In this document: one piece after another, positions 44,313 through 48,956 of the stretch
How positions within the stretch are numbered: position 1 is the first letter of the stretch
Layout: the number at the start of each line of letters is the position of its first letter
DNA from: a virus
Virus record (IMG/VR): IMGVR_UViG_3300030329_003696
Span: 1-64,000 of that record
Length of the DNA stretch: 64,000 nucleotides
Strand: one strand, 5' to 3'
Position numbers and translations under genes: made by a program
Notes under the pieces: model-generated
The model's database searches: none
What the model was told of the DNA's origin: nothing
What the model saw: only the letters and a program-made list of their open reading frames with translations

Positions 44313-44630
44313 TTATTCCTTATCCAAACATCCGAAGTCGAATTGATTAACCCTAAAAATGACTTCTGTGTCGCTTTCGGGTTCTAGGTTTTTAGCTGAG
44401 GCGTTTATGGTCATTTTCATACCTTCTTTACCCAATTTTGCGATTGTCCTTGCCCCACTATCCCAAGCTATGAATCTAAGATATGTAGAGTGTCTTTTCT
44501 TTTCACCCCTTTTATTTCTAAAATACTCATAGATATATAGAGTAAACTCGCAGTATTCAGCACCGGAATCTTCATCTATTTCGACCTCTGGGTCATCGTA
44601 TAGGTATCCCGTAAACATGCAGTTGTTCAT
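44313..44630 (-). CDS. ssb: Single-stranded DNA-binding protein
   Basis: A 105-residue OB-fold protein. MNNCMFTGYLYDDPEVE is the first strand and turn of bacterial/phage SSB, CEFTLYIYEYFRNKRGEKKR the second, then TYLRFIAWDSGARTIAKLGK and GMKMTINASAKN, all in the classic order. It lacks an extended acidic C-terminal tail; it ends FGCLDKE. It binds single-stranded DNA at phage replication forks. It is located between the polymerase operon and the glycan operon and has its own possible promoter, with AAAGGAGAA as ribosome binding site. Confidence 0.85.
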   Translation of the reverse strand: MNNCMFTGYLYDDPEVEIDEDSGAEYCEFTLYIYEYFRNKRGEKKRHSTYLRFIAWDSGARTIAKLGKEGMKMTINASAKNLEPESDTEVIFRVNQFDFGCLDKE

Positions 44631-44676: not shown

Positions 44677-44703
44677 ATTATATTTCGTGAATTTTATTGA
44701 CAA
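44677..44703 (-). promoter_or_regulatory. Possible sigma70-like promoter upstream of ssb
   Basis: On the - strand, TTGTCA (44698-44703) and a perfect TATAAT (44677-44682) are 15 bases apart. The -10 overlaps the stop codon of the polymerase C-half. The predicted start would give a leader of about 35-40 bases before ssb. The short spacer lowers confidence. Confidence 0.35.
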
Positions 44704-46237
44704 TGAACGAATTATCCTTAGCCACGTCTCCACACAGAAGAAGGTTATTACCTTCATAAAGTATATACTGGTATTTATCTCTTGCCTCTGGGAACACGAC
44801 TACACTATCTAAGGAACATGTATTGTCCTCTATCGTAAGAAAAGCCATCTTCCTCCCCTTAGTTTTACCTCGTTTAACCGTGGTGGTCGCTACTCGGTTC
44901 ACATTAGCTGCTATGCAAAGGTTTTTGCCCGTCTTTCCGTTGAGAACATCCTTGCAGTAAGTATTTGCAACCGATGTGTCCGCTGAGTCAATTTTAGACA
45001 GGGATACTGGACAGCCCAAGAATTTGCCCTCCTGTTCAATGATCCATGCAGGATCATCATCCAAGCTGTATGGAGGGTTTTTGATCAAGTTTGCCTCGTT
45101 TTCCACTATCTGACTTCGTTCGACCTTACTTGTTCCCCCACCCATCTTTTTCGTGGGAGATAGATCTATAAAGCAGTCATACAGATTGTCCCACTGTTTG
45201 CTCTGATAATTCTTTACGACCCAGTTAGACTCTGCCTTAGTTAACTCTCTGAATATAAGGTACTCATAAAGTGCTCTATTTCTAGACGTGTTGGTTGCGG
45301 CTGTAGAGAAAAAGCCTATGGAACATAGTGCTTTGAAGGCTGTCGCATTAATTTTTGGCGACAGGTAAACAATGATGTCCATCCAAGAGAACTCGCTAGG
45401 GTCTTTGCCCGTTTCTTCAGACGCCTCCTGCACAGCCTTCATCACTTTATCGCCCGTTACCCCCGTAAGAGATTTAACGTCCTTGACCCCGAAGTATATC
45501 CCATCATCCTGAATGTTGAATTTGGACTCAAACGAGGAAATCTTGGGAATCTTCACTTCAAGGTCAAAAAGCTTGGCTTCGGAAACCAGTTCATAAATTT
45601 CTTGATGGGGGTCTTGTTTCTCATTCGCATGGTATAGGTAGGACAGGAAGAATTCCTTGGTGTGATTTGCTTTATACCAAGCGGACCAAAATGAGTCAAC
45701 CGCATACGCAACAGCGTGAGACTTGTTGAAGGAGTACCTAGACGACTTCTCGATCCAACCAAAGATCTCAGATGCGGTGTCCTCGTTGACTAATCCAGTC
45801 TGGTGACATCCTAGAATAAAGTCTCCTCGTATCATAGCCATTAGCTCTGCATCCTTTTTACCAATAGCTTTTCTCAGGTCATCGGCCTTCTTGAGGTCAA
45901 AACCTGCAAGCTTCTGTGCTATACGCATAGATTGTTCTTGATAAACAAGTACGCCGTATGTTGGCTTGAATATCTCTTCGAGAGACTCGTGTAGATACGA
46001 GACTTCTTCTTCTTTATTCTTTCTATCAACAAACCTTTGCGTCATAGACTTTCCGTCAATAATCGCCTTCAAACAGCCCGGTCTAATCAACGCTATCAGA
46101 GCCGCAAGTTCCTCTAGATTTGAAGGTGCTAGCCTTTTAGACCAAGCACGCCCAAGGTTACTCTCTAGTTGGAAAACCCCTTTTGTGAGGCCGTCCTTGA
46201 AGAGGTTCCATGTTTTCTCATCTTTATAATCAATCAT
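44678..46237 (-). CDS. dnaE: DNA polymerase III alpha subunit, C-terminal half (fingers and OB domains)
   Basis: A 519-residue protein that begins where the N-half stops. MIDYKDEKTWNLFKDGL leads into GVFQLESNLG (20-29), then ALIRPG (49-54), YLHESLEEIFKPTYGVLVYQ (81-100), AGFDLKKADDLRKAIGKKD (111-129) and RYSFNKSHAVAYAV (167-180): the fingers region of C-family polymerases in order. The last ~100 residues form an OB domain (GRKMAFLTIEDNT ... VVVFPEARDKY). The three catalytic Asp residues lie in the other half, so both proteins must associate. It overlaps the endonuclease gene by eight bases and has no intein motifs at its N-terminus. Confidence 0.93.
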   Translation of the reverse strand: MIDYKDEKTWNLFKDGLTKGVFQLESNLGRAWSKRLAPSNLEELAALIALIRPGCLKAIIDGKSMTQRFVDRKNKEEEVSYLHESLEEIFKPTYGVLVYQEQSMRIAQKLAGFDLKKADDLRKAIGKKDAELMAMIRGDFILGCHQTGLVNEDTASEIFGWIEKSSRYSFNKSHAVAYAVDSFWSAWYKANHTKEFFLSYLYHANEKQDPHQEIYELVSEAKLFDLEVKIPKISSFESKFNIQDDGIYFGVKDVKSLTGVTGDKVMKAVQEASEETGKDPSEFSWMDIIVYLSPKINATAFKALCSIGFFSTAATNTSRNRALYEYLIFRELTKAESNWVVKNYQSKQWDNLYDCFIDLSPTKKMGGGTSKVERSQIVENEANLIKNPPYSLDDDPAWIIEQEGKFLGCPVSLSKIDSADTSVANTYCKDVLNGKTGKNLCIAANVNRVATTTVKRGKTKGRKMAFLTIEDNTCSLDSVVVFPEARDKYQYILYEGNNLLLCGDVAKDNSFIVNKIHEI

Positions 46238-46613
46238 TATCTTTACTCAAATAGTTAATTGCTCTTTGTAAACCTTCAACACTATCGCTAAATGCTCCAA
46301 TTCCCCTATTGCACTTATGACATAGCCATCCCCTAAAAACATCTGTTGCATGGCAATGGTCAACGACAAAGGGTGATGCTCTCTTGCTGCCTTCGCCAGA
46401 GACTTCCGATGCTGTTCTTCCACAAATTGGACACTCATAATCTTCTGGCGGTCGCCCATATTTGGTCCGAAGCTCTTTCCTTCTTTTGCTTAAATGCCTA
46501 TTACAATCTTTACATTCTGTCCTCAAATAGTTTTCCCCACCCCTTTTACTGAAGTGTATTGTGGGTAGTTCTTTTTTACATTTACTGCATGTTTTATACG
46601 TACAAATTTCCAT
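46230..46613 (-). CDS. Endonuclease VII-like HNH nuclease between the polymerase halves
   Basis: A 127-residue protein. ATG 46613 is preferred over a TTG at 46631. Two zinc knuckles lie in the N-terminal part (Cys9/Cys12 and Cys34/Cys37, CSKCKKELP ... CKDC), a form common in freestanding phage HNH enzymes. The nuclease core has CPIC (61-64), VDHCHATDVFRGWLCHKCN (84-102) and GIGAF. Asp85, His86 and Asn102 match the catalytic residues of T4 endonuclease VII. It could be a resolvase or a homing endonuclease; location between two halves of a conserved replication gene favours a homing origin. Confidence 0.85.
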   Translation of the reverse strand: MEICTYKTCSKCKKELPTIHFSKRGGENYLRTECKDCNRHLSKRRKELRTKYGRPPEDYECPICGRTASEVSGEGSKRASPFVVDHCHATDVFRGWLCHKCNRGIGAFSDSVEGLQRAINYLSKDND

Positions 46614-47268
46614 CAGCAAACGCCTTATCAAATTTCATATTTCTGTATACTGCACGTCTTGATTTTTGTAGTTTAATAAAGATGTTTGCAGTGTCTTTAA
46701 CGTCTTGGAGGGCGTCATGAGCGTTGTCTCCGGAGAGACCCATGCGTTCTCTGAGGCTATCCATACTGATGGACTTTACGTTTGGATCTCCTTCAGTCCA
46801 AAGCCACACGTCATCCATAACATCAATTTTATAAATCTGGTGAAACAACTTCTGGGATTGTCGCTTTTCGTCCCAAGGCCCGTATTCTTTGCACAACCTG
46901 TTCACGATATGCATGTCATAACCGATAATATTAAAACCGGCGGGAATCGGTGCGAAGTATGGCGTTCCCTTCCAATTATATTTATTGACGAAGTTGCAGA
47001 ACTTTTTCCACACACCCTTCGGAAGCGGTGCTCTCGCCAGCTTCGATCTGGTCTGCCCAGTTACTTTCAACGCACCCTCTTCTAGTGGGTCAACTCCAGC
47101 AGCTATAGCCTCATCGTCATCAATAATAGGACGCATCATACTATTGAACTCACCCTTTAGTCTAAAGTTTCTTCCGTCTAGGGCAATCGCAGCGATTTGT
47201 GTAGGTTGGCATCGTAAAGGATTTCTACCGCCTGTCTCAAAGTCAAAAACAATTATGTCACGATTCAT
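46594..47268 (-). CDS. DnaQ-like DEDDh 3'-5' exonuclease
   Basis: A 224-residue protein with Exo I IVFDFETGG (Asp9, Glu11), Exo II AGFNIIGYDMHI (Asp118) and Exo III NAHDALQDVKDT (His184, Asp189), the complete DEDDh set. It is the expected proofreading subunit for the alpha polymerase encoded around it. The ATG at 47268 overlaps the stop of the polymerase N-half (ATGA), with AAGGAG as ribosome binding site inside that gene. The 3' end overlaps the endonuclease gene by 20 bases. The N-terminal clamp-binding motif was not sought in detail. Confidence 0.9.
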   Translation of the reverse strand: MNRDIIVFDFETGGRNPLRCQPTQIAAIALDGRNFRLKGEFNSMMRPIIDDDEAIAAGVDPLEEGALKVTGQTRSKLARAPLPKGVWKKFCNFVNKYNWKGTPYFAPIPAGFNIIGYDMHIVNRLCKEYGPWDEKRQSQKLFHQIYKIDVMDDVWLWTEGDPNVKSISMDSLRERMGLSGDNAHDALQDVKDTANIFIKLQKSRRAVYRNMKFDKAFADGNLYV

Positions 47269-48887
47269 ACTAACTCCTTGATCATCATTAGTTTATCCAA
47301 AAGGTTGATGCCTAAAACATCAAACTTAACGTGTCCGAGAGCCTCTAGGTCGGCCATTTCAAGGCCAGCGATCTTCTCTGTTCCGCTTTTAGGATTAACC
47401 ATAGGGCAAACTTTGTAAAGTTCTTCTGCCGATATTACAACACCGGCTGCATGTTTTCCTTGTGTCTTAAATGTTCCTTCTATGTCAATAGCCTGCTGAA
47501 ATAGTTCAGAATAATCACCCTCCAATTGACCCGCATCATTTATAAAACAATAGTCACGGAGGTCGTCTGGATTATTGAGCAATGCCCAACGAATAATCGA
47601 TCTGTCTTCTTCATCCATCTCGGCTAACTGGTCTGAGATAGCGGCTTCGTCTGGAATAGACTTAGTGATTTCATTCATTTCACTAAAACCGCAAGCATTG
47701 TTCACTCGCAACACTTCTTTCAAAGCACTGCGTCCCTGAAGTCTACCAAATGTTAACATCTGACTAACATTATTTTGTCCGTATTTATCTTTTAGGTAGG
47801 TAATGATTTCATCTCTTTTGCCACCGGGTACGTCCATGTCAATATCGGGTAGGGAGATGTGGTCATCTGTGTTACGACCGGCATTGTAGAATCTTTCAAA
47901 CAGTAAATCAAACTCAATGGGGTCTATCTGAGTTATACCAATGAGGTACGAGATTAGACAACCCGCTGCTGAACCACGCCCCGGACCTACCATCCACCCC
48001 TGAGTAACGCAGTAGTTAATAACATCCCAAACAATTAGAAAATAACCAAAAAGCTTGGCCTCTTCAATAACCTCATATTCGGAACGAAACCTATCCCCAT
48101 AAATCTTTTTCAGTTCTGGGTCTTTTATCTTGTGCGACAGAAGATCCGTCCACCCCTCACGAGCAAGCTCTCTAAGGTATTCCTTTTGAGTTTGTCCGTT
48201 CGGTGTATCGAATCTTGGTAGAATCGGTTGGCTAAGTATATTGTAGTTCTCGCACTTTTCAAAGATCTCGTCAAACGAATCAATCACTGGGTCTTCTGTT
48301 AATATCTTTGCTACTTCGGACCTATCTTTCAGGTAAAAGTCATTGGTCTCAAAGAAAACCGAGTTATCGATATCTTCTTTATTTGCTAATGATTTCTTAA
48401 TCTTTGGTAGCGTTGTCTTCATGCTTGAACATAATATGACCCTGTGTAATGGTGCGTGCTCCCTTTCTGTATAGTAGACATCCATAAAGGCTTCCGACTT
48501 CTTGTAAAAGTCCTTGCCTTTAATTGGTGATTTAGCTGGGTCTTCGGCAACACAGATAAAGTTCCCGTGGGAAGATAGCCTAACCAATAGTGGTTTGTCA
48601 ACAACTCCGTCCGAATCTATGCTGGAGACTATCTGTATTAGCTCAAGCCAGCCGGAGTGATTTTTGGCAAATAGCGAAAACCCATCAAAAGAACAGCCCA
48701 GTATGGGCTTTATATTATTACTTATGCACGCCTTGTAAAAAGTAACAGCACCAGATATAGACTTGTAGTCCGCAATTCCGCAAGCCGGAAAAGAATTTTG
48801 TGAGCATTTTTTAGCAAGCTCTCTAGGCTTAGAGAAACCCTTTTGTAGAGAATAGTGTGTGTAATTGCACAGTGGAAACCACTTCAT
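47265..48887 (-). CDS. dnaE: DNA polymerase III alpha subunit, N-terminal half (PHP and palm domains)
   Basis: A 540-residue protein. ATG 48887 is chosen: GAAGGA lies eight bases upstream, and the alternative TTG at 48902 lacks a site. The PHP domain occupies about 1-200, with GIADYKSISGAVTFYKACI recognisable, but the usual HxHS metal site reads NYTHYS, so PHP activity is probably lost. The palm carries GPGRGSAAGCLISYL (302-316) and LPDIDMDV with Asp350 and Asp352, plus HVKFDVLG with Asp523, the three catalytic carboxylates. It stops 20 residues after that motif, exactly before the fingers, which are encoded by a separate gene at 44678-46237. Confidence 0.93.
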   Translation of the reverse strand: MKWFPLCNYTHYSLQKGFSKPRELAKKCSQNSFPACGIADYKSISGAVTFYKACISNNIKPILGCSFDGFSLFAKNHSGWLELIQIVSSIDSDGVVDKPLLVRLSSHGNFICVAEDPAKSPIKGKDFYKKSEAFMDVYYTEREHAPLHRVILCSSMKTTLPKIKKSLANKEDIDNSVFFETNDFYLKDRSEVAKILTEDPVIDSFDEIFEKCENYNILSQPILPRFDTPNGQTQKEYLRELAREGWTDLLSHKIKDPELKKIYGDRFRSEYEVIEEAKLFGYFLIVWDVINYCVTQGWMVGPGRGSAAGCLISYLIGITQIDPIEFDLLFERFYNAGRNTDDHISLPDIDMDVPGGKRDEIITYLKDKYGQNNVSQMLTFGRLQGRSALKEVLRVNNACGFSEMNEITKSIPDEAAISDQLAEMDEEDRSIIRWALLNNPDDLRDYCFINDAGQLEGDYSELFQQAIDIEGTFKTQGKHAAGVVISAEELYKVCPMVNPKSGTEKIAGLEMADLEALGHVKFDVLGINLLDKLMMIKELV

Positions 48888-48927: not shown

Positions 48928-48956
48928 ATTATAGGCTAGGGAAGGCTATTTTGCAA
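48928..48956 (-). promoter_or_regulatory. Sigma70-like promoter for the polymerase operon
   Basis: On the - strand, TTGCAA (48951-48956), a 17-base spacer and TATAAT (48928-48933). The -10 is perfect, the -35 matches four of six, and the spacing is optimal. The predicted transcript would start near 48921, about 34 bases before ATG 48887. A short inverted repeat, CCCTA-N8-TAGGG, spans the -10 and could be an operator. This is the largest gap on the - strand. Confidence 0.65.

Follow-up and report, generated by a model that had tools for sequence, protein, structure and literature searches.

The 64,000-nucleotide stretch analysed here (the window, positions 1 to 64,000 of the IMG/VR virus record IMGVR_UViG_3300030329_003696) carries a C-family replicase, Pol III alpha, that is encoded in two pieces, with the genes of a proofreading exonuclease and of an HNH endonuclease located between them. 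The best explanation, to which a probability of about 0.84 is assigned, is that the polymerase was split once, with the exonuclease gene lying between the halves, that the two halves assemble in trans into the working enzyme, and that the HNH gene is a later guest at a junction that was already broken.

The four genes lie on the minus strand in the order N-half (47265..48887; 540 amino acids, aa), exonuclease (46594..47268), HNH (46230..46613) and C-half (44678..46237; 519 aa). Successive genes overlap by 4, 20 and 8 nucleotides (nt), the 4-nt overlap being that between the N-half and the exonuclease gene; genes, domains and overlaps agree in this with a preliminary description of the same DNA. 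The N-half comprises the PHP, palm and thumb domains, with Pfam matches to DNA_pol3_alpha (PF07733, 231.5 bits, covering profile positions 1-260 of 260) and PHP (PF02811, 51.1 bits), and it holds all three catalytic Asp motifs, GPGRGSAAG, LPDIDMD and KFDVLG. The C-half contains the fingers (DNA_pol3_finger, PF17657, 154.2 bits), with the motifs GVFQLES and YSFNKSHA, followed by the C-terminal helical region and the OB fold. The PHP, DNA_pol3_alpha and finger matches, all above the Pfam cut-off, together with the Asp motifs identify a C-family polymerase, although not in its usual form as a single polypeptide, since two open reading frames (ORFs) are found in every complete member. The exonuclease is of the DEDDh proofreading type: it matches RNase_T (PF00929, 39.6 bits, above cut-off), displays the motifs FDFETGG ... 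NIIGYDMH ... NAHDALQDVKD, and is assigned to phrog_192, ‘DNA polymerase exonuclease subunit’, with an E-value of 2.1e-25. The HNH gene product is endonuclease VII-like (Endonuclease_7, PF02945, 57.2 bits), and its gene, present in some loci only, is a passenger at the junction between exonuclease and C-half.

The match of the N-half to E. coli alpha ends at about residue 564; that of the C-half covers residues 591-855 and then, weakly, 976-1058. The break is thus located at the palm/finger boundary, which supports the earlier claim of a true gene split at this position. Two details of the preliminary description need adjustment. The N-half does end after the Asp of KFDVLG, at a distance of 17 residues rather than the 20 that had been given, and the statement that the halves restore a continuous alpha subunit without loss holds only approximately: even when the unaligned ends of the two halves are taken into account, about 15-20 residues of the linker are missing. 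The C-half match stops near residue 1058 of the 1160 of E. coli alpha; the C-terminal part beyond this point, with the tau-binding region of cellular alpha, is lacking.

Structure prediction agrees with the assignment of both proteins. The AlphaFold2 model of the N-half (predicted local distance difference test, pLDDT, 84; predicted template modelling score, pTM, 0.84) gave a best Foldseek E-value of 1.7e-32, to 2hpi, and a TMq of 0.79 to E. coli 2hqa. The C-half model (pLDDT 85.9, pTM 0.78) matched the Pol III alpha structure 4iqj at 6.7e-19, but with a low TM score and a high root-mean-square deviation over its full length. All significant matches of the halves in the PDB were Pol III alpha or PolC, and in these models, both of them confident, each half is predicted to fold independently.

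To follow the arrangement beyond the window, IMG/VR and GTDB were scanned with peptide patterns that lie inside the C-half, so that retrieval was blind to whether a polymerase was split or intact. The resulting set comprised 214 loci, that is, the window and relatives down to 38% identity, some of them from the same contig; 149 were non-redundant. N-half, exonuclease and C-half were all complete in 207 of the 214, the remaining seven being cut by contig ends. The order N-half, exonuclease, C-half was found in each of the 207 complete loci, and no intact polymerase copy was present among them. A sequencing or assembly artefact would be conceivable because the bin that holds the window is a metagenome assembly, but nothing in favour of such an error was found at the break itself. 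The occurrence of the same break in some 200 contigs drawn from numerous metagenomes excludes it as a general explanation and leaves it a negligible probability.

The GTDB scan recovered only two loci of the split kind (L224 and L225), and its next matches were intact bacterial DnaE proteins of about 30% identity, which is also the identity of the closest intact polymerases to the split clade. Two maximum-likelihood trees were built with 43 and 28 sampled split sequences, together with intact phage, viral and bacterial polymerases. In both, the sampled split polymerases formed one clade with a support of 100 and a stem of 0.85-0.88, adjoining intact phage polymerases. Given a single, fully supported clade on a long stem, one origin of the split is the simplest reading; the split would then be an old and single event in the common ancestor of a large group of uncultured phages. 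The phage isolate collection contained no close isolate, the best identities being below 40%.

Intact viral polymerases were also searched for with a DNA pattern spanning the junction, which retrieved 24 loci. The intact enzymes so obtained were about 24-42% identical in their best segments, and scored far under any split member; those added to the tree were placed outside the split clade. The search of related phages for intact versions therefore yielded only distant intact viral enzymes and none within the clade. One junction-pattern match was found at the contig end of a split member (L327:1-600), where a bacterial-type dnaE fragment shares a reading frame with the phage gene to which it is joined; this is probably a chimeric join made in assembly.

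Both polymerase halves are under strong purifying selection, with ratios of nonsynonymous to synonymous substitution (dN/dS) between close pairs of 0.01-0.08 for the N-half, the exonuclease and the C-half alike, and alignments of diverse members show little or no variation in the catalytic motifs. In the proposed mechanism, the N-half, bearing the PHP, palm and thumb domains and the catalytic Asp residues, and the C-half, bearing the fingers and the OB fold, would be translated from a single message. As a rule, a gene starts inside or beside the stop of the previous one, and translation would proceed by termination and reinitiation. Start and stop codons overlap at the N-half/exonuclease junction in 52 of the 149 non-redundant loci and at the exonuclease/C-half junction in 91 of the 149, which makes the translational coupling suggested in the preliminary description likely. 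The halves would then dock non-covalently in trans across the palm/finger boundary to give an active polymerase, to which the neighbouring exonuclease would add proofreading. Assembly in trans, also proposed earlier, appears to be the simplest function for the two proteins.

We infer this assembly from the genes, and the window lineage has a shorter PHP region (its N-half measures 540 aa, compared with about 630 aa in deep branches); both points leave some room for the halves acting separately or decaying, with a host or other polymerase replicating the phage. Such a scenario is unlikely, however, in view of the strong purifying selection on both halves, of the invariant catalytic motifs, and of the retention of both halves in every complete locus. 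A C-family palm that lacks its fingers could not work as a normal polymerase, which further disfavours separate functions. In a different elaboration of assembly in trans, the polymerase would be an obligate complex of three parts, the exonuclease bridging the PHP/palm and finger proteins during synthesis so that only a proofreading-competent polymerase is built; this can be put forward only tentatively and is rather doubtful. The constant position of the exonuclease gene may be a relic of the gene-breaking event, or it may aid assembly.

The window is part of a 152,655-bp contig (C7) in a 1.36-Mb metagenome bin. The contig also carries RIIA, RIIB, ribonucleotide reductase, a UvsX-like recombinase and a DnaG-like primase, a gene content that indicates a large phage. 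No second polymerase was found on it, no PolB was found in the assembly or bin, and PolA was found only on another contig (C24). A full-length dnaE elsewhere in the genome had been named in the preliminary description as evidence that would count against the split. One such protein (1071 aa) is encoded in the same bin; as it lies on a different contig (C16), is 24-27% identical, and the phage contig was binned with other DNA, the split stands. The sliding clamp (PF00712) had no match in the whole assembly, a result that says little because not even a cellular clamp was detected.

Several observations weigh against a coupled, self-assembling split replicase as the sole polymerase of these phages. 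In deeper branches an ORF of 55-78 aa, or longer genes, part the N-half from the exonuclease, and in L073 and L076 the two lie roughly 6 kb apart; not every member therefore depends on tight coupling. Compared with whole solved structures, the C-half model gives a poor fit (TMq <0.5), perhaps because the chain of domains is flexible without its partner. Contig C7 lacks terminal redundancy. It may therefore not be the entire genome, in which case a further polymerase could be encoded beyond its ends.

The small ORF of the deep branches, about 55-78 aa long, is common between the N-half and the exonuclease and occurs in two sequence types (for example, L072:6641-6859 and L138:7041-7232). Four of these ORFs were compared with PHROG; three had no match and one had a weak match to a family of unknown function. 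The product is a possible extra subunit. The 6-kb segments of L073 and L076 consist of metabolic-type genes.

A working protein in the form of one chain would result if splicing, through a split intein, an intron or some other event, rejoined the halves. The preliminary description had reported no intein motifs at the break, and this was borne out: such motifs are absent from the ends of the N-halves and the starts of the C-halves in the aligned members, Pfam gave no intein match at the window break, and Rfam gave no intron in the window or in seven relatives. In the cyanobacterial split DnaE, likewise a C-family replicase encoded by two genes, a split intein located at a different site joins the products; the window break differs from it in lacking the N and C intein motifs that flank such a break. 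Split inteins do occur in the clade, as in L125 (4754-7096), where the N-half is itself broken by one (GPGRG followed by CFVPETN..., and ...VHN followed by SAAGC), giving a three-piece polymerase. This intein is readily recognizable, so intein breaks are visible in the clade when present, and the break between N-half and C-half is not one of them. A phage split intein has also been published, in the MIJ3 PolB (PMC6892783). Against rejoining, besides the empty motif, Pfam and Rfam searches, stand the overlapping stop and start codons of the junctions and the fact that the DNA separating the halves consists of one or more complete genes; splicing is accordingly very improbable.

The HNH gene shows a different distribution from the split. 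Extra DNA was present at the exonuclease/C-half junction in 33 of 148 non-redundant loci, and an endonuclease VII-like gene in 11 of the 148; other HNH types occur at this junction in some loci, and GIY-YIG, sugar-nucleotide and other genes are found in other loci at the N-half/exonuclease junction or elsewhere between the halves. The distribution of the HNH gene requires 10 gains or losses on the tree, nine of them forced by well-supported branches, and the gene is missing from the nearest relative of the window (L005) and from L003 and L004. In blastn of the window against L004 the alignment stops at the exonuclease stop codon and restarts at the beginning of the C-half, two points that are directly adjacent in the relative; from this and other HNH-less relatives, the inserted DNA spans approximately 46235..46593 (minus strand, about 359 nt). 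A second pair, L018 (occupied) and L020 (empty), has colinear flanks that are 84-86% identical and an insert of about 333 nt exactly at the junction. Sequence comparison at the seam suggests that the insert captures the old start codon of the C-half and supplies a new one. Synonymous divergence (dS) between L018 and L019 was 0.39 for the HNH gene, a short gene compared in one pair, versus 1.0-2.4 for the flanking genes, as would be expected if the cassette had been transferred recently. The gene thus shows the features of free-standing homing endonucleases, namely a nuclease domain (PF02945), scattered presence (10 changes) and empty sites (L020). Judging from its distribution, its occupied and empty sites and its divergence, it appears to be a mobile endonuclease that entered the already split junction later and repeatedly.

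The preliminary description had considered the HNH enzyme a plausible agent of the split, by invasion of an intact polymerase gene followed by fixation. Its location between the halves in the window would suit this, and endonucleases accompany splits in T4-like phages (mobE in nrdA, seg43(25) with gene 43; PMC2988022); in Alicyclobacillus phage MMB025 an endonuclease gene also lies between polymerase fragments, at another site. However, the split is universal (207 of 207 complete loci), while the gene is sporadic and absent from L005, so the present HNH endonuclease was not the splitting agent. Its position at the exonuclease/C-half junction would, moreover, leave the location of the exonuclease between the halves unexplained, and L018 and L020 show an HNH gene entering an existing junction. 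This origin is therefore improbable, although another endonuclease, since lost, could have caused the original break.

The nearest experimental precedent for assembly in trans, by analogy, is provided by gp43A/gp43B of the T4-like Aeromonas phages 25 and 44RR (Petrov et al. 2006, reviewed in PMC2988022). There, too, the two replicase genes are neighbours, in some cases separated by a homing endonuclease gene (seg43(25) in phage 25), and the two proteins of phage 25 purify together and show polymerase activity (PMC2988022). These polymerases differ in belonging to the B family, of unrelated fold, in occurring in few phages, and in the lack, as far as described, of an intervening exonuclease gene. 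The free-standing homing endonucleases of T4 (mobA-E and segA-G), many of which are promoterless and overlap the upstream gene by 1-24 nt (PMC2988022), are similarly nuclease cassettes between phage genes; the window nuclease, a putative homing enzyme, differs in being endonuclease VII-like.

Among C-family enzymes, group 2.2 jumbo phages encode a minimal split Pol III alpha, whose two proteins are expected to cooperate (Iyer et al. 2021, PMC7824862). This resembles the window in dividing a C-family phage polymerase between two proteins, but it consists of the minimal core only, is encoded by distant genes and is accompanied by a family B polymerase (PMC7824862). The window polymerase, in contrast, has adjacent genes with the exonuclease between them and keeps the PHP and OB domains, with no PolB found, and thus does not belong to the jumbo-phage type. 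C-family polymerases in two genes were also observed in Cellulophaga phage phi13:1/phiST and Bacillus phage Jayan. Their break lies about 200 residues upstream, just before PDID (window residues 338/345), no exonuclease gene is located between the pieces, and the proteins fall outside the split clade in the trees. The phi13:1 and Jayan loci (L151 and L153) share this second break site, at which PHROG families 13169 and 12219 end and begin. In phage MMB025 (L152:3150-7512), Pol III alpha is in two pieces with the endonuclease gene between them, inside the fingers region; this break is possibly a recent invasion or an intein or intron. A literature search, with subscription papers outside its reach, did not find the window arrangement described, and the minimal split of jumbo phages was the only C-family case recovered. 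Split phage polymerases as such were already known; what differs here is the break site, the gene order, the domain content and the clade-wide fixation.

Other features of the window surround the polymerase genes. A possible sigma-70-like promoter (TTGCAA-17-TATAAT, proposed only from a match to the consensus at 10 of 12 positions) lies upstream of the N-half at 48928..48956 on the minus strand, and the next gene downstream of the C-half encodes a single-strand DNA-binding protein (44313..44630, minus strand; PF00436, 39.9 bits). The cluster is embedded in a long minus-strand block (27443-53458), in which many genes, from a reading of the ORFs, resemble glycosyltransferases, sugar-nucleotide enzymes and methyltransferases.

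This arrangement distinguishes two things that are often conflated: the polymerase was split in ancient times, and nuclease genes reached its seams later and more than once. The naturally separate halves allow tests of the folding of C-family polymerases, of the docking of fingers and palm, and of the role of the exonuclease in assembly. The findings suggest that a cellular-type replicase can be cut permanently in two at the palm/finger boundary, with no protein splicing to rejoin it, and nevertheless replicate a diverse group of phages.

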